Assembly: GCA_030539275.1 (NCBI GenBank)
Contig: JAUNSK010000014.1
Span: 39,934-103,933, forward strand
Direction of reading: 5' to 3'
Source: Oscillospiraceae bacterium
GTDB taxonomy: Bacteria > Bacillota > Clostridia > Oscillospirales > Ruminococcaceae
Length of the DNA: 64,000 nt
Below are positions 1,920 to 46,185 of this stretch, piece after piece. The notes beneath the pieces are model-generated. The model saw only the letters and a program-made list of their open reading frames with translations, was not told the origin of the DNA and searched no databases. Each line of letters begins with the position of its first letter. Position 1 is the first letter of the stretch. The position numbers were made by a program, and so were the translations under genes.

Positions 1920-3890
1920 ATGAATCGTTTTTTTCCCAATGACCTTGGCCTGACAAAGGAATCAAAGCCGGCAACCAGATACACCGTTAAAGCAAATGAA
2001 GAAATATACACCCTGCTGGATTTTAAGAATAAGCAGGAAGCCGAGTTTGCCGTGCGCGGACAGAAAGATAAGCCAAAGAAGCTGGAGCTTACCGATGCGA
2101 AAGGCAATGTAATCTGGAGCCAGGCAGCCTATTGTTTTTTAAAAGAATATGAAAAAGCTCCGGATACAGCAAATCCGAGCCTTTGGGAGAACACAAAAAA
2201 CAATCACGCCTACGGGCTGTTTGAGGTGTGCGATCGTATTTATCAGGTGCGCGGCTATGATATGGCCAACCTGACGGTAATCAAAGGAGATACAGGATGG
2301 ATTGTCTTTGATCCTCTGATGAGCGTAGAATGCAGTCACGCAGCCATGCAGCTTATCGGGAAAAACCTCGGGAGTTATCCAGTCAAGGCAGTTATCATTT
2401 CACATCCGCATGTGGATCACTTTGGCGGAATTCTTGGCGTGATGAGAGAAAAACAGCGTGCAGATGACAGCCTGTCACTCACTGAGCAGATCGCCAGTGG
2501 TAAAATCCCGATTATTGTTCCTGAGAGCTTTGAGAAACACGCCATCGAAGAAAACGTTTATGCAGGAAAAGCCATGTCACGACGTGCCAATTATCAATAC
2601 GGCGTACTTCTGGAACCAGGTGTGAAAGGGAAGCTTGCTCAGGGTATTGGTATGGGACAGTCTACCGGTACAGTATCCTACCTTTCACCTACATACGAAA
2701 TCAGAGAGACCGGAGAGGTCATTACGGTTGACGGAGTGGAAATGGAGTTTCAGATGACACCCGGAACAGAAGCTCCGGCAGAAATGAACACATGGTTTCC
2801 TCAGTTTAAGGCATTGTGGGTAGCAGAAAACTGTACTGCAACGCTGCACAACCTCTATACGCTGCGTGGCGCACAGGTACGTGATGGTGCGGCTTGGGCA
2901 AGTTATCTGACTGAAACAATTATCCGCTACGGCAGCAAGGCTGAGGTCACTTTCCAGTCACACAACTGGCCTCATTGGGGCAATGCGGAGATCAACGACT
3001 ATCTTGTCAATACCGCTGCGGTATACAAGTATATCAATGATCAGACGTTGACTTATATCAATCAGGGATATACTTCTGATGAAATCTCCAATATGATAAA
3101 GCTGCCCAGTGAATTGGAAAAGATATGGTACACCCGCCAATACTATGGCACTGTGGCACATGACTCGAAAGCAGTTTATCAGAAGTACATGGGATGGTAT
3201 GATGCCAATCCTGTCAACCTTAACCCTCTTATGCCAACTGACAGCGCAAAGAAGTGGGTTGAATATATGGGGGATGTAGATAAGGCATTACTCAAGGCTA
3301 AAGCAGATTACGAAGACGGTCAGTATCAGTGGGTGGCAGAGGTGACCAATACCATTGTTTTTGCTTATCCCGAAAATGAGGCTGCACGGTTGCTGTGTGC
3401 CGACGCATTGGAGCAGCTTGGTTATCAGGCAGAATCAGGGCCATGGCGCAACGCTTATCTTACCGCAGCGCTGGAGCTTCGTTTCGGCAACTGTGCTGCA
3501 GATGCAAAGGTAGCAAAAAGCAACGGTGACATTATCAGGAAAATGACCGCTCATATGTTGTTTGACTACATGGGAATTCTGTTAAACAAACAGGCTCTTG
3601 AAGACTGTGACTTTGTTATGAACGTGATACTGCCCGATGTTGATGAACAGTATATGCTGCGAATTAAAAACGGTGTAGTTCTGGTGTATGATGATACCTT
3701 GTCAGATGAGGCAGATGTCTCTATTACATGTCCGAAAAATGCTCTGTTCTATATAGTAACAAACGATCAGGACAATATGGCAAAGGCCATACATATAGAG
3801 GGCGATACAAAGCTGGTTACATTACTTGCGGAAAATATGAATCAGGTTCCGGTCATGGGAACTGTTCCATTCAACATTATTGAACCGTAA
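1920..3890 (+). CDS. Alkyl sulfatase (SdsA1/BDS1-type, metallo-beta-lactamase superfamily)
   Basis: A 656-residue type III sulfatase. It is expected to hydrolyse linear alkyl sulfates such as dodecyl sulfate with two zinc ions and release the alcohol. The metal site HPHVDH at residues 162-167 is the superfamily HxHxDH motif. Downstream are the family hallmarks AENCTATLHNLYTLRGA, a conserved SHNWPHWG segment, the helical dimerisation domain (residues ~390-520), and a C-terminal SCP2-like hydrophobic-binding domain (~525-656). Length and architecture match the family. No signal peptide is seen, so the enzyme is probably cytoplasmic, unlike the secreted Pseudomonas SdsA1. AAAGGAGA precedes ATG 1920. 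The gene is flanked by a consensus promoter and a terminator, so it is probably monocistronic. Its codon use looks more GC-rich than its neighbours, which could mean transfer. Confidence 0.92.
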   Translation: MNRFFPNDLGLTKESKPATRYTVKANEEIYTLLDFKNKQEAEFAVRGQKDKPKKLELTDAKGNVIWSQAAYCFLKEYEKAPDTANPSLWENTKNNHAYGLFEVCDRIYQVRGYDMANLTVIKGDTGWIVFDPLMSVECSHAAMQLIGKNLGSYPVKAVIISHPHVDHFGGILGVMREKQRADDSLSLTEQIASGKIPIIVPESFEKHAIEENVYAGKAMSRRANYQYGVLLEPGVKGKLAQGIGMGQSTGTVSYLSPTYEIRETGEVITVDGVEMEFQMTPGTEAPAEMNTWFPQFKALWVAENCTATLHNLYTLRGAQVRDGAAWASYLTETIIRYGSKAEVTFQSHNWPHWGNAEINDYLVNTAAVYKYINDQTLTYINQGYTSDEISNMIKLPSELEKIWYTRQYYGTVAHDSKAVYQKYMGWYDANPVNLNPLMPTDSAKKWVEYMGDVDKALLKAKADYEDGQYQWVAEVTNTIVFAYPENEAARLLCADALEQLGYQAESGPWRNAYLTAALELRFGNCAADAKVAKSNGDIIRKMTAHMLFDYMGILLNKQALEDCDFVMNVILPDVDEQYMLRIKNGVVLVYDDTLSDEADVSITCPKNALFYIVTNDQDNMAKAIHIEGDTKLVTLLAENMNQVPVMGTVPFNIIEP

Positions 3891-3944
3891 TTTTATCTGC
3901 GGTTTTGCATTACATATACAGAAATTCAGGGCACTTATTAATTT

Positions 3945-3984
3945 AAAAAATTCTGCGGTCAGACTTGGCAGCAGGATTTTTTTC
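3945..3984 (+). terminator. Intrinsic terminator of the alkylsulfatase gene
   Basis: A 12-bp stem (3945-3956 with 3971-3982, one G-U pair) and a run of seven Ts. It lies 55 bp after the alkylsulfatase stop codon. Confidence 0.7.
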
Positions 3985-4091
3985 TTCCTATTATATGGCT
4001 TTCGATGACTTGTATACACAAAGATAAAATGATGATTATAAAGGGTTGTCAAAGTTTGCAGATCAGAGTAATTTTAATGCATTTTTGCCTA

Positions 4092-4120
4092 TTTACCAAT
4101 TCACAATTATATGTTATACT
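4092..4120 (+). promoter_or_regulatory. Probable sigma-A promoter
   Basis: TTTACC, 17-bp spacer, TATACT. It lies just ahead of the broken reading frame at 4169 and may also drive the genes at 4383 and 4947. Confidence 0.5.
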
Positions 4121-4168
4121 ATTATCATCAGTGGTATTATTTACAATAATTTATTGGAGGTAAAAAGC

Positions 4169-4300
4169 ATGGAGAACTATGAGTGAATAGACAGTGTGAA
4201 AATACAAAACATACCATGGAACAGACTTTTTTATGCATATGGTGCAACAGTGAATTTCCCGTCAATAAATCATTACTGCGTTTTAAATATGAAAAGGTAA
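4169..4300 (+). pseudogene. N-terminal remnant of a hypothetical protein, interrupted by a stop
   Basis: TGGAGG and ATG 4169 make a good start, but codon 6 is TGA (4184-4186). The same frame then reads on for 37 codons to TAA 4298 and contains IPWNRLFYAYGATVNFP. That segment resembles the opening of a small protein common in Ruminococcus and relatives (IPW-R---AYG---FP), whose function I do not know. The rest of the gene is absent. The next 70 bp also encode in-frame protein-like sequence (AAIKSVEEDSITIVIG), which suggests a second decayed fragment. A selenocysteine reading is unlikely because the frame ends soon afterwards. Confidence 0.4.
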
Positions 4301-4382
4301 TTAAGTACCGGGGTAACTGCAGCAATAAAAAGTGTTGAAGAAGATAGTATTACGATTGTAATCGGACAGGAAGGTGATTATC

Positions 4383-4922
4383 ATGATTTATTTTATTGCA
4401 TATCTGATATATGTTTTTGGTTTCATATTTCTATGGGCATTCGTTCACTTAATACGGAGAATGTATCATCTCATACACGCTGACAGGGTAGTTAAAGTCA
4501 TTGCCTGGGACAGAAAGCAGGAGTCAGTTAAACGGGTTTTATTCCTTGTGGCAATTATTATAGCATTCGTACGTTTTTTAAATAAGTACTTAATAAATCT
4601 TGAAAAGGGGAATATTGATTATTCTGATATATATTTTTTTCTGTGTATTTTAACTGGAATATTCTTTGTTTATTTCCTTCTAGTTGCGTTGAATTCAAGA
4701 TTTATTTACATAACTGACAGAATGATAATATTTGAAGATTGTGTAAAAAAAGCAGAGGGATACCAATATCGGATAACAGACGATATACTCGAATTATATG
4801 CATTAAAGCCCCCTAAAACGCTAAAAAAATATATTATTGAAGAAGATAAGTTCTTATTAGAAGATATATTGATTGAAAACTATAAGATGATTGAGAACCA
4901 GGTTGCTGTTAAAAGGTTTTAA
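4383..4922 (+). CDS. Hypothetical membrane protein
   Basis: A 179-residue protein of no family I recognise. Hydrophobic segments near residues 2-22, 48-66 and 80-105 suggest three membrane spans, followed by a charged C-terminal half rich in Lys, Glu and Asp, probably cytoplasmic. ATG 4383 is preferred over the in-frame GTG at 4374 because AGGAAGGTG lies at the right distance and would overlap the GTG. It is followed 24 bp later by the DUF1963 gene, so the two may be cotranscribed. Confidence 0.6.
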   Translation: MIYFIAYLIYVFGFIFLWAFVHLIRRMYHLIHADRVVKVIAWDRKQESVKRVLFLVAIIIAFVRFLNKYLINLEKGNIDYSDIYFFLCILTGIFFVYFLLVALNSRFIYITDRMIIFEDCVKKAEGYQYRITDDILELYALKPPKTLKKYIIEEDKFLLEDILIENYKMIENQVAVKRF

Positions 4923-36038: not shown

Positions 36039-36204
36039 CTTTATTCATAAAGATATATCTTAAATTCCTTATCATCTCATTTCTTACATTTTTTACATAG
36101 GGTAGAATTATGCAACAAAAATACTGTAAAAATTTAAATTATTGTATACATTTGTATATTTTTTTGGTATAATATTATAGATAATTTATCCGGAGGTGAA
36201 AATT

Positions 36205-36783
36205 TTGAAAAAATTTCTTGACCGATTACTTGAATCTATGAGCGAATATGGTATTGTCAACGATGAAGATAGTTATGATATTGTCAGGTATGGAGCAGAG
36301 ATGTTTATTATGAAAATAATTTTTTTACTCGCTACAATACTTGTGGGTATCATTACTCACAGCCTGATGGAAATAACAATTTTCATGATCGTCTTTCAGC
36401 CGCTGCGAACGTATGGCGGCGGTTACCATTCCAAAACTAAGATGAGGTGCTTTATATCTTCTGTGCTGTTGATGTTTCTGGTTGTATTTTCAGGCAAGGT
36501 GATGCCAGAAAAAATATTACCGGTTCTATCGGTGGCATCCGTACTGATAGGTGGGACTGTTATTTTTTTTCTCGCTCCTATAGGAACCCCAAACAAACCC
36601 CTTGATGAAGTAGAAAAGATCGTCTACAGAAAAAGAACAAGGTTGATCTTAACTGCAATTATTGCAGCCGGTATAATCATACTTGCATTACACAGATATA
36701 ACTGGCTTTTTATGATTGCCCTGGGATTACTGGCAGTAAGTCTGCTGTTGATATTAGGTAAGTTTATTTGTGAAGATGAATAA
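36205..36783 (+). CDS. agrB: AgrB-like peptide-processing membrane protease
   Basis: A 192-residue integral membrane cysteine protease that cuts and cyclises AgrD-type pheromone precursors. The catalytic pair is present: His75 in RTYGGGYHSKT and Cys82 in MRCFISS, at nearly the positions of Staphylococcus AgrB (His77, Cys84). About five hydrophobic spans follow a short amphipathic N-terminus (KKFLDRLLESM). TTG 36205 is chosen as start because GGAGGTG ends just before it and overlaps the in-frame GTG at 36196. A -10 TATAAT (36168-36173) precedes it. Downstream are the LytTR regulator and, after its own promoter, the precursor gene at 37843. Confidence 0.92.
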   Translation: MKKFLDRLLESMSEYGIVNDEDSYDIVRYGAEMFIMKIIFLLATILVGIITHSLMEITIFMIVFQPLRTYGGGYHSKTKMRCFISSVLLMFLVVFSGKVMPEKILPVLSVASVLIGGTVIFFLAPIGTPNKPLDEVEKIVYRKRTRLILTAIIAAGIIILALHRYNWLFMIALGLLAVSLLLILGKFICEDE

Positions 36784-36812
36784 CTAAAGTGAACAGGGAT
36801 GTGGATAGTGAT

Positions 36813-37523
36813 ATGATACGAATTGCAATTTGTGACTATGAAAGAGAGACTGTTAAGAAAATTGAAAATACAGTTCATGATTATCAGTATAAATTACGGT
36901 CTCAGTTTGAAATACATACTTTTCTTGACAGCAGGGATCTGATCAGTTGTCATTGTAAATTTGACTTAATATTTCTTGACATAGAAATGCCCGATATAGA
37001 CGGGATCAAAGCGGCAAAGAAAATAAGGGAAAAGGACAAGAAGGTAAAACTAGTGTATGCAGCTGACCATTCAGAGTATGCTGTAAATGCATTTACAGTT
37101 CATCCGTTTGATTTTGCTGTAAAGCCCCTTGATCCACCAAAAATCAGGGCAATTCTTGATGAATACATAAAATATACAGTACAGCAGGATGAAGAGAAAA
37201 AAGTAACACTGAAAACCTCAGGCGGTACTATAGTTTTTAGTTTAGGCGACATAATTGCGTTTGAGTATATTGATAACAGACGTATTTTAGTGCATACGAC
37301 AAGTAAAAGTGAAGAGATACGAGGCAGCATATCTGAAATACTTCAGACTATTAATTGCGAATATTTCGTCTCACCGCACAGAAGTTTCATTGTTAATCTA
37401 CGGGAAGTTAATAAAATAGACGATTATATAATCTATATGAGCAATGGCCTGCAGATACCGGCAGCTCAGAAGCGACTGAAAGAATTTCAGAACATGCTGA
37501 ACTCATATATTTCAGATAATTAA
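36813..37523 (+). CDS. LytTR-family response regulator (AgrA-like)
   Basis: A 236-residue regulator. The receiver has Asp56 in LIFLDIEMPDIDG as phosphoacceptor and Lys104 in FAVKPLD; the acidic pocket reads CDYE. The LytTR DNA-binding domain (~130-232) contains GDIIAFEYIDNRRILVHT, ISEILQTINCEYFVSPHRSFIVNL and NGLQIPAAQKRLKEFQ. ATG 36813 is preferred to GTG 36789. It lies 29 bp after agrB. No sensor kinase gene lies between here and the AgrD gene, so its kinase must be elsewhere or it acts without one. It is the likely activator at the repeats ahead of agrD. Confidence 0.92.
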   Translation: MIRIAICDYERETVKKIENTVHDYQYKLRSQFEIHTFLDSRDLISCHCKFDLIFLDIEMPDIDGIKAAKKIREKDKKVKLVYAADHSEYAVNAFTVHPFDFAVKPLDPPKIRAILDEYIKYTVQQDEEKKVTLKTSGGTIVFSLGDIIAFEYIDNRRILVHTTSKSEEIRGSISEILQTINCEYFVSPHRSFIVNLREVNKIDDYIIYMSNGLQIPAAQKRLKEFQNMLNSYISDN

Positions 37524-37730
37524 GATGCTTACCAGTTCATAACATCATCAGGCGGCATATATTTAAATGTTTTAACGCAATTATTACAGTTACTGCATAA
37601 CTAGTATTTGTTTATATATTTTGCATATTTAAGTATACTTCAACATATTTATCTATTTATTTCACAATAATTTTTCTCAATTTTTTGAAATAATATAAAA
37701 TAATCTATTTAATTAATAAAAATTCACGGC

Positions 37731-37795
37731 ATTTAATGCAAAAAGCTGTTGTTTAGTGCAAACCCATTGACTTTTGATCCATAACGCAATATTAT
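37731..37795 (+). promoter_or_regulatory. agrD promoter with direct repeats (probable LytTR site)
   Basis: Two near-identical 10-mers, ATTTAATGCA (37731-37740) and GTTTAGTGCA (37751-37760), lie exactly 20 bp apart. They end just before the -35 TTGACT (37767-37772), which is followed by a 17-bp spacer and -10 TATTAT (37790-37795). LytTR regulators bind paired direct repeats about two helical turns apart immediately upstream of -35 boxes. Confidence 0.65.
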
Positions 37796-37842
37796 GGGAT
37801 TGTTGGAAAAACCAATTATACAAAATATGAGGAGGACTAATT

Positions 37843-37992
37843 ATGAAAAAGTCAACAATCAAATCAAACGCATTAAAGGCAATGGCAGCTGTATCTGCAA
37901 AGTCAGCTGAAAAGAATTCAAACTCAGCTTGCTTCTGGTTCCTTGGTCAGCCTAAACAGCCAAAGGCAGTTAAGAAACTGAGAAAATTCTAA
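37843..37992 (+). CDS. agrD: AgrD-like cyclic autoinducer peptide precursor
   Basis: A 49-residue gene with a strong GGAGGA ribosome binding site. The N-terminal ~24 residues form a Lys-rich amphipathic helix (membrane anchor). The core is NSACFWFL followed by the recognition tail GQPKQPKAVKKLRKF. By alignment with AgrD proteins (ring, then x-x-P-x-x-P), Cys30 and Leu34 would close a five-residue thiolactone, Cys-Phe-Trp-Phe-Leu, much like the Clostridium perfringens CLWFT ring. The tail is basic where staphylococcal tails are acidic. AgrB (36205) is the matching processor. It has its own promoter at 37767 and a terminator at 38131. Confidence 0.9.
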   Translation: MKKSTIKSNALKAMAAVSAKSAEKNSNSACFWFLGQPKQPKAVKKLRKF

Positions 37993-38235: not shown

Positions 38236-40410
38236 TTATGTTTTCATCAGATCTCTGTAATGCTTCGCCGTGATCCCTACACTTGCAGTGAACTGTCTCT
38301 GAAAATACTTGTGATCGAGAAAACCGCATTTTTCTGCAGTATCAGTAAGGCTCATCGATGTGACCGCAAGATAGTATTTTGCTTTTGAAATACGTGCATT
38401 TATACAGTCCTGATGAAAACTGATACCAAAACATTTTTTATACATAACTCTCATGCTGTTCAGATTTCCGGTATACAGTTTCATAAGACCATCCCCGAAT
38501 GTAAGTTCCGGACAGGTATAGATACTGTTGCGAAGTGTAAGCATTTCATTATAATGAGGCATAGAATAATTAATTTCCAAATGATGCTTGTACGACTTTG
38601 CTCTGTTAAGGCATGTATCAAATAAAGATTCAAAGTCAAGGTCTGAGCACAATTCACCTGTACAGAAAACAGAATTTATGCCGAATAGGTCCATATATTC
38701 TTTATGCTGGATCATTATTGAAATAAGTGTACTGCACAACAGCTCAATGCCGGCATTGCTCTGTACAATGCATACAAAAGTATGATCGCCCATATATCCG
38801 CAGATATCATTGCACCCGCAGAATTCCTGTACTGCTTTTGATGCACTTATCAGTGCCTTTACCTTCTGATCGACCTCGCTGGTAAATGATGATGTAACAT
38901 TTATACAGACACGAAGTATGATAAAGCAAAGAGCTTTACTGTCATTAACGACTACATTTTTATAAGCATGACGTATCCCGTTTCTGTTTAACATGCCTGT
39001 AAGTGTATCTCTGGAATTTGAAAGGTCCTGACAGCTTAACAGATACTTGATATCATTTTTCATTCTAAGAAACTCAAGGCATGTAGATACTGATTTTGTC
39101 CATGTCCTGAAAGCTTCATCATAGCTGTCAGGTTTGTTATATCTGAGGACCAGATGTCCGAAAAGCCTTGTACCGAAAAAAACAGGTGTAAAGTAATATA
39201 CTGCAGGATGTTCTTCTCTGTGGAATATGGCTGCAAAATCATATTTGTGTGCTTCAAAAGAACAGCTATCTGGCAATGGAATAATGTTTCTGCACGAAAT
39301 GAGAGAAGATGCAGGATTGATATCATACCAGTCTATATACAGACACAGGTATACAGACTGGACATTTCTGATCATCCACTGAAATTCACCCATGATAGCA
39401 GCAAATTCATCAGGATTTTTCGCAGCAGTTAGTTTCTGCTCCATTGTGCTGAACACAACATAACGTTCATAGTCCTTCATATCAAGTTCATTCTCAAGCT
39501 GATCATATGTGACCCCCGCATCAGCATGACAGTGACAGCTCTCGCCGCAGATAAGCTCCCCGGGAGGAGAATTGATATCCGGCAACTGGGTATTGTTAAG
39601 CAGGCTATTGATCAGCATTACTGCTTTTTTACCCAATGATCTGCGGTTTCGCCTGTAAACGGTAAGAAGAGGAGAGAAGAATATACGGCGTTCAGATAAT
39701 TCATATGCCACAACAGCAACATCATCAGGAACTTTTATATTACTATGTTTGAATGTTCTGAGCATTCCAAACGCCATGCGGTCATTTGCACAGACGATCG
39801 CTTCCGGCAATTCCAGTTCTCCGCTTATATATCGATTCGCAAGATTTTCTCCGGAAGTCAGCCAGAAATCACCGTAGAAATAATTATTATCTTCCGGAAA
39901 AAGTCCATGCCTGATCAGAGATTTTCTGTAGCCTTCCAGACGATTTTCTGATATCTGATTTTTCTTCGGTCCGGTAAGAATATCGATCTTAGAAAATTTA
40001 TGTACTTCAATCAGATGATTAGTCAATAACTCGAGATCATAACAATCATTTGTATTTATACAGAAAAAAGCCGGGTTGCTGAAATCCGGAAGCTGTTCAC
40101 CAACGAGTATCACAGGAGTATTCTTCTTCATGATCAGTTTAGAAATATACTTTATCAGCGAGTGGCTTACAAATGCCTCTGAATCCAGTATTACTGCAGC
40201 GATCTGATCCGAGAGTATCAGATCAAATATCCTTTGTTCGCATATGAGATTCTCATTTTCCTGACTCATATTATATATGTTTGAAAACACAGCAGTATCA
40301 TATCCAAATGCCTTTGCCTGCTCAATAATACCAAGCATCAATTCCTTTTGAGCAGACTGACTGGCAACAGCAGTTATAACAGCAACAATTGGTCGTCCTG
40401 AGTTGTCCAT
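38236..40410 (-). CDS. LacI-like sensor / degenerate GGDEF / AraC transcriptional regulator
   Basis: A 724-residue cytoplasmic regulator. The N-terminal ~290 residues follow a LacI-type periplasmic-binding-protein fold (IVAVITAV, AIVCANDRMAFGMLRTF, VPDDVAVVAYE) without a LacI helix-turn-helix. A middle ~190 residues of unknown fold leads into a GGDEF-like domain that starts DTLTGMLNRNGI but has MGDHTFV where GGDEF should be, so it is probably catalytically dead. The C-terminal ~80 residues are an AraC helix-turn-helix pair (ISKAKYYLAVTSMSLTDTAEKCGF, YFQRQF). AAGGAG precedes ATG (complement 40410). It lies divergent from the GH30 gene and is a paralogue of the protein at 43874. Confidence 0.85.
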   Translation of the reverse strand: MDNSGRPIVAVITAVASQSAQKELMLGIIEQAKAFGYDTAVFSNIYNMSQENENLICEQRIFDLILSDQIAAVILDSEAFVSHSLIKYISKLIMKKNTPVILVGEQLPDFSNPAFFCINTNDCYDLELLTNHLIEVHKFSKIDILTGPKKNQISENRLEGYRKSLIRHGLFPEDNNYFYGDFWLTSGENLANRYISGELELPEAIVCANDRMAFGMLRTFKHSNIKVPDDVAVVAYELSERRIFFSPLLTVYRRNRRSLGKKAVMLINSLLNNTQLPDINSPPGELICGESCHCHADAGVTYDQLENELDMKDYERYVVFSTMEQKLTAAKNPDEFAAIMGEFQWMIRNVQSVYLCLYIDWYDINPASSLISCRNIIPLPDSCSFEAHKYDFAAIFHREEHPAVYYFTPVFFGTRLFGHLVLRYNKPDSYDEAFRTWTKSVSTCLEFLRMKNDIKYLLSCQDLSNSRDTLTGMLNRNGIRHAYKNVVVNDSKALCFIILRVCINVTSSFTSEVDQKVKALISASKAVQEFCGCNDICGYMGDHTFVCIVQSNAGIELLCSTLISIMIQHKEYMDLFGINSVFCTGELCSDLDFESLFDTCLNRAKSYKHHLEINYSMPHYNEMLTLRNSIYTCPELTFGDGLMKLYTGNLNSMRVMYKKCFGISFHQDCINARISKAKYYLAVTSMSLTDTAEKCGFLDHKYFQRQFTASVGITAKHYRDLMKT

Positions 40411-40443
40411 AATGAGATTCTCCTTTATAAATTTATATATATA

Positions 40444-40472
40444 ATTATAAACAATTATTGTATTAAAATCAA
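40444..40472 (-). promoter_or_regulatory. Promoter of the sensor-AraC regulator
   Basis: Read on the minus strand: TTGATT (40472-40467), 17-bp spacer, TATAAT (40449-40444). Confidence 0.6.
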
Positions 40473-40535
40473 TTATATTATTCAAAAATTGCTATACATT
40501 ATATCACATTGTCCACCTTTATATCATTTTATGGG

Positions 40536-43873: not shown

Positions 43874-46078
43874 CTATATTTTTATTTTTCTGTACATATT
43901 AGGAGTCATTCCTGTGATAAGTCTGAACTGCTGCATAAAGTATTTTTCATTGTTATACCCGCATTTTTCTGCAATGGAAGCAATACTCATACCACTTGAG
44001 AGAAGAAGATATTTTGAGAGTCTTACACGCATAATGATGCTGTCATGATGATAACTGGTATTAAAAAACTGTCTGTAAACGGCGCGAAAATGTCCGCTGC
44101 TCAGACAAAACTCTCTGCATGCTTCATTTGCCTGTAAAATACCAGAAGGTTTAATGTAATTACGATTTCTGAATTTGCAGTATCTTATATACTGAGGATC
44201 ACTTGAACGACCATCCGGTACAGATGTTTCTGATTCAGAACGGGTCTGCAGATCATTCAGTATCTGAGAAGATTCACTGCCTGCGATTTTCCCGCTGAAT
44301 GTAGATATAGTGCAAAATTCCGGACCATATATACCGTACTTAACAAAACACCTGTACATCAATGCTTCTATACGGTCTGCGAGCCGGTCTTCATACTCAC
44401 TGCTGCTGTCATGTCCGATAACAGCAGCAGCAAAGATATTTTCATCGATCCTTCCACATATTTTTCCGGGACTTATGGCAAATGATCTGAAAATTTCAGC
44501 TGTATCAGTCAGAAATGAGGTTTTCTCAAATATATAATTATCATCAAATACAGTATTTTCACTATTAAGTCTCATCAGAAGCATTGTGATATCTGATTCA
44601 TTTCCTGCGTTTCTGACAGAAATATCAAGCTCGTTTATAAATCCTGTTCGGTTATAAAGTCCGGTAACAGAATCATGCAGTTCAGACAGATTTCTGCATT
44701 GCATCAGATAGTCAATATCATTTTTCATTCGCAGAAATTCAAGAGCATTTGATACTATTTTAAGCCAGTTTCGCAATGAATCACCCGGATTTGCTGATTT
44801 GTCGTATCTGACGGTCATATATCCAAAGTCTCTGTCCATAAAAAAGAGAGGCAGGCAGAAGTATGCATTCGGCTTTTGTGATATCCTCAGAAAACCGGGG
44901 AGGAGGTCTGTTTTACTGAAATGTACAGGGCCCTGATCTTCTGTAAATTTATCCTGAATGCTGTAGCAGATCATATCACAGCTGCTGTCTGAGTTCATTA
45001 TTTTCGGTGAGATGCACCAGTCTTCATTCAGACATAAAAACAATCCTGAAAGGTCAGGAAGAAAATATGAGTGTGTTCTCAGCTCACGGATAAGATCTGA
45101 TATTGTTTTTGTGTTGGTTAGATACTGTTCAAGCATACCTGTTGCATTATACTGTAAAAATAACTGCTGACGATGAATTTCAGCTGTCTCAGAAGAAATA
45201 TATTTATAGTCAGCACCGCACTCACAAGTATCTCCTCTGATAATTTTTCCCTCAAGGGATATATCTGTTTTATCACATTTTCCGGTGACCCGCTCATATA
45301 GCATATCAAACAGTCTTATTCCCAGTGCTTTTCTGTTGCGTTCATATGTAGTAAGTATCGGATAGTGATTTGTTCGGCCTTCGACATATTCGTACCCGAC
45401 GACTGTGATGTCTTCGGGGATCCTGACACCATGAGCAACAAAAGTATCGCACATAGCAAAAGCCATATAGTCATTTGCACAGATCACAGCCTGAGGCATT
45501 CTTCTCTCACCTCTGATATAGGCAAGTGCTGTATTTTCGCCGCCGGAGAGCCAGAAGTCTCCATAAATAATATTATTATCATCATTATGTAAACCATGTT
45601 TTTGCAGTGATCTCTGAAAACCTCTGACCCTGTCGTGTGAAGTAGCCAGGTTATCAGGACCGGTTAGAATATCAATCTCTGAAAAATGATGAATATTGAT
45701 AAGATGATCCGTTATTTGTTCAAAATCTGATTCAGTACAGCTGTCAATGGACGGATAACGTGTAATGGTACTTCCTGAACAGACAACAGGTATATCATGT
45801 TCGTCAAGATATGAAAATATTTGTTCAAGAAGGCTTTTATTCATAAATGCATCCCCTGTAATTAAAAATCCTTCAGGCTTCTCAGAACTTATCAGACTAT
45901 ATATATTGTTTTCAAGCTTAATAAAATCATTGTATTCAGAAGCATTATAAATATTAGAGATAATTACAATATCAGTATTCATTTTCAGACCCTGTGATAT
46001 TATACCATCAAGAAGCTGAATTTGCTCACAGGCAAACGGACGAGCTGTTATAACTGCGAAAATATGTCTGTTTTCCAT
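43874..46078 (-). CDS. LacI-like sensor / degenerate GGDEF / AraC transcriptional regulator
   Basis: A 734-residue paralogue of the protein at 38236, with the same domain order. The LacI-like ligand-binding part (~1-290) has IFAVITARPFA, AVICANDYMAFAMCDTF and IPEDITVVGYEY. A middle domain follows, then a GGDEF-like domain opening DSVTGLYNRTGF with IDENIF in place of GGDEF (inactive), and a C-terminal AraC pair (SIASIAEKCGYNNEKYFMQQF). The start is set by alignment with the paralogue (MENRHIFAVITA versus MDNSGRPIVAVITA); an in-frame ATG at 46096 is possible, and neither has a strong ribosome binding site. It is divergent from the GH5 gene, its probable target. Confidence 0.84.
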   Translation of the reverse strand: MENRHIFAVITARPFACEQIQLLDGIISQGLKMNTDIVIISNIYNASEYNDFIKLENNIYSLISSEKPEGFLITGDAFMNKSLLEQIFSYLDEHDIPVVCSGSTITRYPSIDSCTESDFEQITDHLINIHHFSEIDILTGPDNLATSHDRVRGFQRSLQKHGLHNDDNNIIYGDFWLSGGENTALAYIRGERRMPQAVICANDYMAFAMCDTFVAHGVRIPEDITVVGYEYVEGRTNHYPILTTYERNRKALGIRLFDMLYERVTGKCDKTDISLEGKIIRGDTCECGADYKYISSETAEIHRQQLFLQYNATGMLEQYLTNTKTISDLIRELRTHSYFLPDLSGLFLCLNEDWCISPKIMNSDSSCDMICYSIQDKFTEDQGPVHFSKTDLLPGFLRISQKPNAYFCLPLFFMDRDFGYMTVRYDKSANPGDSLRNWLKIVSNALEFLRMKNDIDYLMQCRNLSELHDSVTGLYNRTGFINELDISVRNAGNESDITMLLMRLNSENTVFDDNYIFEKTSFLTDTAEIFRSFAISPGKICGRIDENIFAAAVIGHDSSSEYEDRLADRIEALMYRCFVKYGIYGPEFCTISTFSGKIAGSESSQILNDLQTRSESETSVPDGRSSDPQYIRYCKFRNRNYIKPSGILQANEACREFCLSSGHFRAVYRQFFNTSYHHDSIIMRVRLSKYLLLSSGMSIASIAEKCGYNNEKYFMQQFRLITGMTPNMYRKIKI

Positions 46079-46185
46079 ATCTTTAGTCACTTTCATTTAG
46101 TATTATAGAATTATTATATCTGTTTTTTATTACTAAATCAATAGTCTGAATCTTCATTTTTTATACCTATCCTACAGAAATAAGG

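Follow-up and report, generated by a model that had tools for sequence, protein, structure and literature searches.

An agr-type locus without AgrC

The stretch of DNA analysed here, called the window in what follows, comprises 64,000 nucleotides and contains an agr-type locus in which agrB, a LytTR regulator gene and agrD follow one another (order B-A-D), with no kinase ORF at the locus. The gene content, the gene order of the relatives, the absence of AgrC at the locus, the residue changes in the regulator and an operator common to several loci can be read directly from the sequences. The explanation that we regard as rather probable is that of a derived agr locus, from which agrC was lost, whose regulator lost its switch residues and in which agrD is driven without AgrC. 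Starting from an ancestor ordered B-A-C-D, the sensor kinase gene agrC would have disappeared and the response regulator would have lost residues of its phosphorylation switch. What is left of the locus still seems usable: AgrB would cleave AgrD and close it into a Cys-Phe-Trp-Phe-Leu thiolactone. The regulator, for its part, would attach to a direct repeat of 20-bp period beside the agrD promoter and activate agrD without AgrC, either constitutively or through its abundance. The direction of change, the processing and secretion of the peptide, the DNA binding of the regulator, its independence of phosphorylation and the lack of self-sensing are deduced from sequence comparison. Because the receptor gene is gone and the phosphate switch of the regulator looks worn, the cell may broadcast a signal that it does not hear itself.

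A preliminary description of this DNA had presented the locus as a quorum-sensing system. In the full sense of the term this is doubtful, since the sole AgrC found in the genome belongs to another agr locus and switch residues of the regulator are changed. The description did not mention that the genome has two more agrBD pairs, that the receiver is altered and that the agrD promoter carries an operator. The genome that carries the window (G000; 3.68 Mb in 49 contigs, 96.16% complete) is referred to below by its contigs C3, C6 and C35, while G-numbers designate other genomes and L-numbers designate loci. The bacterium degrades fibre and is probably related to Ruminococcus.

AgrB, AgrD and the predicted peptide

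The agrB gene (36205..36783, plus strand) encodes a membrane peptidase/cyclase of 192 aa that scores 137.7 bits against the Pfam AgrB model (cut-off 23). It starts with a TTG codon, with GGAGG 8 nt upstream. His75 and Cys82, to which the preliminary description had drawn attention, are kept and are invariant across the nine aligned AgrBs. A promoter-like site, TATACA-17-TATAAT with TG before the -10, precedes the gene (36145..36173, plus strand); it is a weak indication from a consensus scan that returned 19 sites against 11.7 expected in shuffles. A search of the genome and viral contig sets with two AgrB sequences gave no named close relatives.

The AgrD-like gene that had been proposed as a separate downstream unit (37843..37992, plus strand) encodes a precursor of 49 aa and is recognized by the NCBI model TIGR04223 with 49.1 bits (E 4.2e-13), above the curated cut-off of 19. 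A five-residue ring had also been predicted and is supported by the alignment of eight AgrDs, all of which display a Cys/Ser+4 core followed by x-Gln. The codons of the predicted thiolactone ring, Cys30-Phe-Trp-Phe-Leu34, would occupy 37930..37944 (plus strand), its probable limits being taken from this alignment. The closeness of this ring to the C. perfringens pheromone CLWFT, as claimed earlier, agrees with a table in PMC12312760.

Gene order and the missing kinase

The regulator gene and agrD are separated by a gap of 319 bp (37524..37842, plus strand), located where the B-A-C-D relatives have agrC. No histidine kinase had been reported in the locus, and this holds: there is no kinase ORF, and a tblastn search of the gap with six AgrC proteins produced chance-level matches only (best E 0.052). 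The order had been described as B-A-D and not B-D-C-A. B-A-D is indeed the order present, but the best reading of it is a B-A-C-D locus from which C is missing. The order B-A-C-D is that of four loci in other genomes (L118 in G335, L119 in G144, L121 in G398 and L182 in the MAG Ruminococcus sp. RGIG9739), so that agrC appears to have been lost from the window locus. B-A-D need not be a rearrangement, the closest loci with a regulator gene being ordered B-A-C-D. In G233 (L120), B-A-C is followed by the contig end. An ancestral B-A-C-D order, with agrD on its own LytTR-controlled promoter, is most likely from these comparisons. This ancestry is made less direct by the nearest AgrB outside the own genome (G031, 37%), which belongs to a D-B locus, and by other loci of the family, which run A-C-D-B (G423, and G010, G007 and G008 of the window's own genus). 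The D-B locus (L092; G031:C130, 2838-3704, minus strand) has an operator at a 21-bp period before agrD, and neither a regulator nor a kinase was detected on its 6.4-kb contig.

Another 26 AgrB loci from the family were examined over about 1.5 kb on either side: 22 have an AgrC-like kinase nearby, and some of the remaining four are cut by contig ends. The genome-wide search for an AgrC-like kinase that had been suggested was carried out with a five-sequence AgrC profile. It gave a single match in the whole own genome, the C6 kinase, which lies beside another AgrD in a separate agr locus; none was found at the window locus. In a crude hydropathy count, the C6 AgrC has seven membrane stretches and 15 others have one to four (17 HATPase_c_5 places; L011, at a contig edge, was left out). 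A regular expression for the kinase H-box was uninformative, since it missed the C6 AgrC itself.

The own genome contains three agrB genes and, above the model cut-off, three agrD genes. The C6 locus is canonical, with its own AgrA, AgrB and AgrC in the order A-C-B-D and a serine-core AgrD. It is followed (L027; G000:C6, 2747-10378, plus strand) by ORFs that resemble, by eye, a small secreted protein, a lipoprotein and an ABC transporter; these resemble the ORFs found behind an operator in G334 (L292). The C35 locus consists of B and D only (L026; G000:C35, 5139-6030, minus strand), without adjacent AgrC or AgrA and with a promoter that lacks the RTGCA operator. Its AgrB is 54-56% identical to that of the window, and its AgrD combines a ring, CMLLI, unlike that of the window with a tail, GQPKQPKAVKKLRKF, identical to that of the window AgrD. 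The best tblastn match to AgrC in the C35 region (E 0.004, 26.2 bits over 70 aa) lies outside the B-D gap. This borderline match falls in a 326-aa ORF downstream of agrD (3818-4798, minus strand) that has no Pfam match.

A direct-repeat operator at the agrD promoter

The agrD gene has its own promoter, TTGACT-17-TATTAT (37767..37795, plus strand; consensus scan), with a predicted LytTR operator of 20-bp period. The two half-sites of this direct repeat, TTTAATGCAAA (37732..37742) and TTTAGTGCAAA (37752..37762), are on the plus strand with a spacing of 20, and the second ends 4 nt upstream of the -35. The same geometry of repeat and -35 is found in the promoter that follows a second LytTR regulator gene, on C3. 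The pattern RTGCA-N15-RTGCA-N6-TTGAC occurs without mismatch at only two sites in 3.68 Mb, before agrD and before the C3 gene for a CBM2 protein, each just downstream of one of two sister regulators. This count is not independent, because a first pattern, TTTARTGCAA with a variable spacer, matched the window copy only and was loosened after the C3 promoter had been read. With up to two mismatches, 26 matches were obtained in the own genome against 10 for a reversed control.

Since the pattern came from the own two sites, its outside support is given by the sites of other genomes. When a period of either 20 or 21 bp was allowed, 396 genomes yielded 30 matches, spread over 26 of them, against four for the reversed-pattern control. 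According to the AgrD profile, an AgrD lies just downstream of three of these matches (the window, G335 and G031). One more is the C3 site, and another, in G334, precedes ORFs that look by eye like those of a lipoprotein and an ABC transporter; the 25 matches without an assigned gene are probably mostly due to chance. Outside the 396-genome set, the operator is found before agrD in L182 and, in L183, before a 175-aa ORF that follows a regulator-kinase pair. The pattern is thus common to three agrD promoters of other genomes (G335, RGIG9739 and G031).

When promoters were scored for self-repetition at a set distance from the -35, those of the window and C3 reached 9 of 12. Of 361 promoter-like sites, taken from a set rich in agr loci, 12 scored at least as high. 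By this measure the repeats of G335 (6) and RGIG9739 (7) are weak, and the C35 agrD promoter (7), which is devoid of the RTGCA letters, scores no lower. The agrD promoters of G144 and G423 also carry direct repeats, with letters that differ from those of the window operator. With the settings used, a repeat-finding search reported no repeat at the C3, G335, RGIG9739 and G355 promoters. An RNAIII-like or other known RNA at the locus was considered and set aside, Rfam having returned two sub-threshold matches to eukaryotic families.

A regulator with an altered receiver

The regulator gene (36813..37523, plus strand) encodes an AgrA-like LytTR response regulator of 236 aa, in which the Pfam Response_reg and LytTR domains both score above their cut-offs. 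It is best read from the ATG at 36813, the start position in the proteins of its relatives and the origin of the residue numbering used here; GTG 36789 is an alternative. The LytTR motif PH-R/K-SF-IVN is kept. Asp56 and Lys104, noted previously, are present, as is Asp8, so that the regulator may still be phosphorylated. The second acidic residue is replaced by Tyr9 and the switch Thr/Ser by Ala84. The C3 regulator, 45% identical to that of the window, has Asn and Met at positions 9 and 84, and no kinase or AgrB was found beside it in the 13-kb stretch read.

These positions were compared in 31 regulators, out of 47 places of the family outside the own genome; of the 31 compared, 28 adjoin a kinase. 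Position 84 is Thr/Ser in every one of them, whereas the acidic pair, Asp-Asp in 29, is Asp-Val in one (G355) and unreadable in one. Among 80 wider relatives, position 84 is again Thr/Ser without exception, and the acidic pair is DD, ED or DN in 75, SS in one and unreadable in four. The DN pair, with the Asn of the C3 sister, occurs once among these 80 and has a kinase alongside, so that Ala84 and Met84 are more exceptional than Asn9. Both the second acidic residue and the Thr/Ser are lost from the two own copies, which have no kinase, but not from any of the family relatives that adjoin a kinase and have a readable N-terminus (27 in all).

The window and C3 regulators are sisters in two trees (support 96/94 and 98/94). 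The fork that joins this pair to the kinase-paired regulators of G335, RGIG9739 and G334 type has a support of only 87/82 and 88/82. The altered regulators (the own pair and that of G355) require at least two origins on the tree. In an uncultured Clostridia MAG (L188, 5001-5893, plus strand), a regulator with an intact receiver is followed directly by an AgrD gene. No kinase or AgrB was detected in the 6.9 kb of this locus, in which an upstream ORF resembles an integrase by eye.

Alternative explanations

The strongest of the mutually exclusive rival readings is sensing of the peptide in trans, by a kinase that would phosphorylate the window regulator and might be either the C6 AgrC or a member of another family. 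Its rank is due to the retention of Asp56 and Lys104 and to the existence of clostridial agr loci without agrC; an AgrC is moreover present at C6, and one acting in trans could be missing from the data since the genome is 96% complete. A distant two-component pair, VirS/VirR, is known for the agrBD-only locus of C. perfringens. C. difficile Agr1 has likewise been linked to RgaS-RgaR (PMC10602386), and some clostridia have agr loci that lack both agrC and agrA (PMC12312760). The C6 AgrC, however, has its own AgrA, AgrB and serine-core AgrD, and the double receiver change seen in both kinase-less copies is absent from the 27 readable relatives that adjoin a kinase, which makes sensing in trans unlikely. 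A simpler variant would place the missing AgrC within an assembly gap, as an incomplete assembly in 49 contigs might allow. The window contig is nevertheless continuous across B-A-D, and the altered receivers of both sisters speak against a kinase still acting on these regulators; we give this variant very little credit.

The locus could also be a decaying remnant: the loss of AgrC would have come first, the regulator would now be drifting, and the peptide would at present serve no purpose. The loss of agrC fits such decay, as do the receiver letters that differ between the two copies (Tyr/Asn and Ala/Met). Yet all three frames are intact, the AgrB His/Cys pair, the AgrD core, the LytTR motif, the operator and the -35/-10 elements are kept, and the second AgrBD pair (C35), with another ring and the identical tail, is intact as well, so that decay seems quite improbable. 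A signal acting between species is compatible with the derived locus, the two not being mutually exclusive: the peptide of a receptor-less producer would interfere with, or signal to, the AgrC of relatives. The B-A-C-D relatives do have AgrC together with AgrD cores of like design (NSAC-AWWL, NSAC-FFWH), the AIP groups of S. aureus are known to inhibit one another (PMC12312760), and the own genome retains two agrBD pairs that differ in their rings and have no AgrC beside them. The similarity of the ring to the cores of the relatives is only partial, and this role is put forward as a doubtful possibility.

Comparison with known systems

The derived locus that we prefer resembles the agr system of Staphylococcus and clostridia in the His/Cys pair of AgrB, the Cys+4 core of AgrD and the LytTR regulator. 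A direct-repeat operator upstream of an agr promoter is also common to both, the AgrA repeats preceding P2/P3 (PMC4227749); the promoter spacer is 17 bp for the window agrD and 18 and 20 bp for S. aureus P2/P3 (PMC4227749). It differs from that system in the absence of AgrC, in the changed switch residues of the receiver and in agrD standing alone behind the operator. The agrBD-only loci of C. perfringens, C. botulinum and C. difficile (Agr1) likewise have no AgrC gene beside agrBD, but the window keeps an AgrA-like gene, and its relatives have AgrC where it has a gap.

Another AgrD peptide of a cellulolytic bacterium, the cyclic pentapeptide of Clostridium thermocellum Clo1313_2818, was demonstrated by LC-MS/MS and likewise has no identified receptor (PMC5322536). 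That peptide is a lactone for which no AgrB, AgrC or AgrA was identified (PMC5322536), whereas in the window AgrB and an AgrA-like regulator are adjacent to agrD. A precedent for LytTR activation independent of a kinase and of phospho-aspartate is provided by S. mutans ComE, which at raised levels activates its promoter without ComD, and also with Asp60 changed to Ala (PMC12323615). Unlike the window regulator, ComE is paired with a kinase, ComD, and its Asp60 is phosphorylated (PMC12323615).

Both agr loci without agrC and agrA (PMC12312760) and an AgrD pentapeptide with no receptor identified in a cellulolytic clostridium (PMC5322536) are already known. A review mentions agrA/agrB in 199 rumen genomes and calls the evidence limited (PMC10838665). 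Our literature search, which covered titles and opening lines of abstracts in a library with few subscription papers, returned no agr locus that keeps AgrB, AgrD, an AgrA-like regulator and the operator while losing AgrC and receiver switch residues. The window lets one follow stepwise how a quorum-sensing circuit changed, from the B-A-C-D relatives through the surviving operator to the lost kinase and the changed receiver. Continued synthesis of the peptide, if it takes place, would mean that AIPs can go on being produced after self-sensing has ended, a point relevant to the question of who benefits from such signals, the producing cell or those around it. The operator, in addition, yields a short list of testable promoters and ties agr-type regulators in a concrete way to the cellulose-degradation genes of the family.

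A possible link with fibre degradation

As previously described, the locus is surrounded by genes for cellulosomal enzymes: at least four window genes encode dockerin proteins, including GH43, GH30-like and GH5 enzymes. It had been proposed that the signal tunes fibre degradation. A route through the adjoining dockerin genes is not favoured, because the only strict operator of the window is that of agrD and none precedes a dockerin gene; the general idea of a fibre link survives as a suggestion from the C3 and G355 cases. The gene behind the C3 operator (L117; G000:C3, 7407-10190, plus strand) encodes a protein of 927 aa that has two CBM2 stretches and is probably secreted. Its C-terminal part gave no Pfam match and one chance-level PDB match; this half contains HG and C motifs which, by eye, we take to resemble those of clan CD cysteine peptidases. 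As the sister regulator adjoins this CBM2 gene and the operator is the same as that of agrD, the comparison suggests that the same type of switch may have been co-opted for the attachment to, or the degradation of, cellulose.

In G355, which belongs to another genus, an altered LytTR regulator is encoded just upstream of a GH5 cellulase gene (L294; G355:C69, 2935-6081, minus strand). This regulator has Val at position 9 and Glu in place of Asp56 and keeps the Thr, and no kinase was detected on its 7.3-kb contig. The GH5 promoter carries a 9-of-12 repeat of 20-bp period, in different letters but equally far from its TTGACA. Taken from gene neighbourhoods and promoters, the link between agr-type regulators and fibre degradation is suggestive. 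A broader proposal, which we offer tentatively, is that AgrA-type regulators of this family were repeatedly freed of their kinase, partly lost the phospho-switch and now act as stand-alone activators. One of the two own sisters would drive a receptor-less peptide and the other a CBM2 protein from the same operator; the G355 regulator, altered independently, stands before GH5. The AIP of such a deaf broadcaster would be tied to fibre attachment and be heard, or be antagonistic, only in other species.

Two large regulator-like genes of the window (38236-40485 and 43874-46096, minus strand) are each divergent from a dockerin gene. The former combines a binding part of LacI type with an end of AraC type, and the latter looks alike by eye. 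These two genes are the likelier local controllers of the dockerin enzymes.
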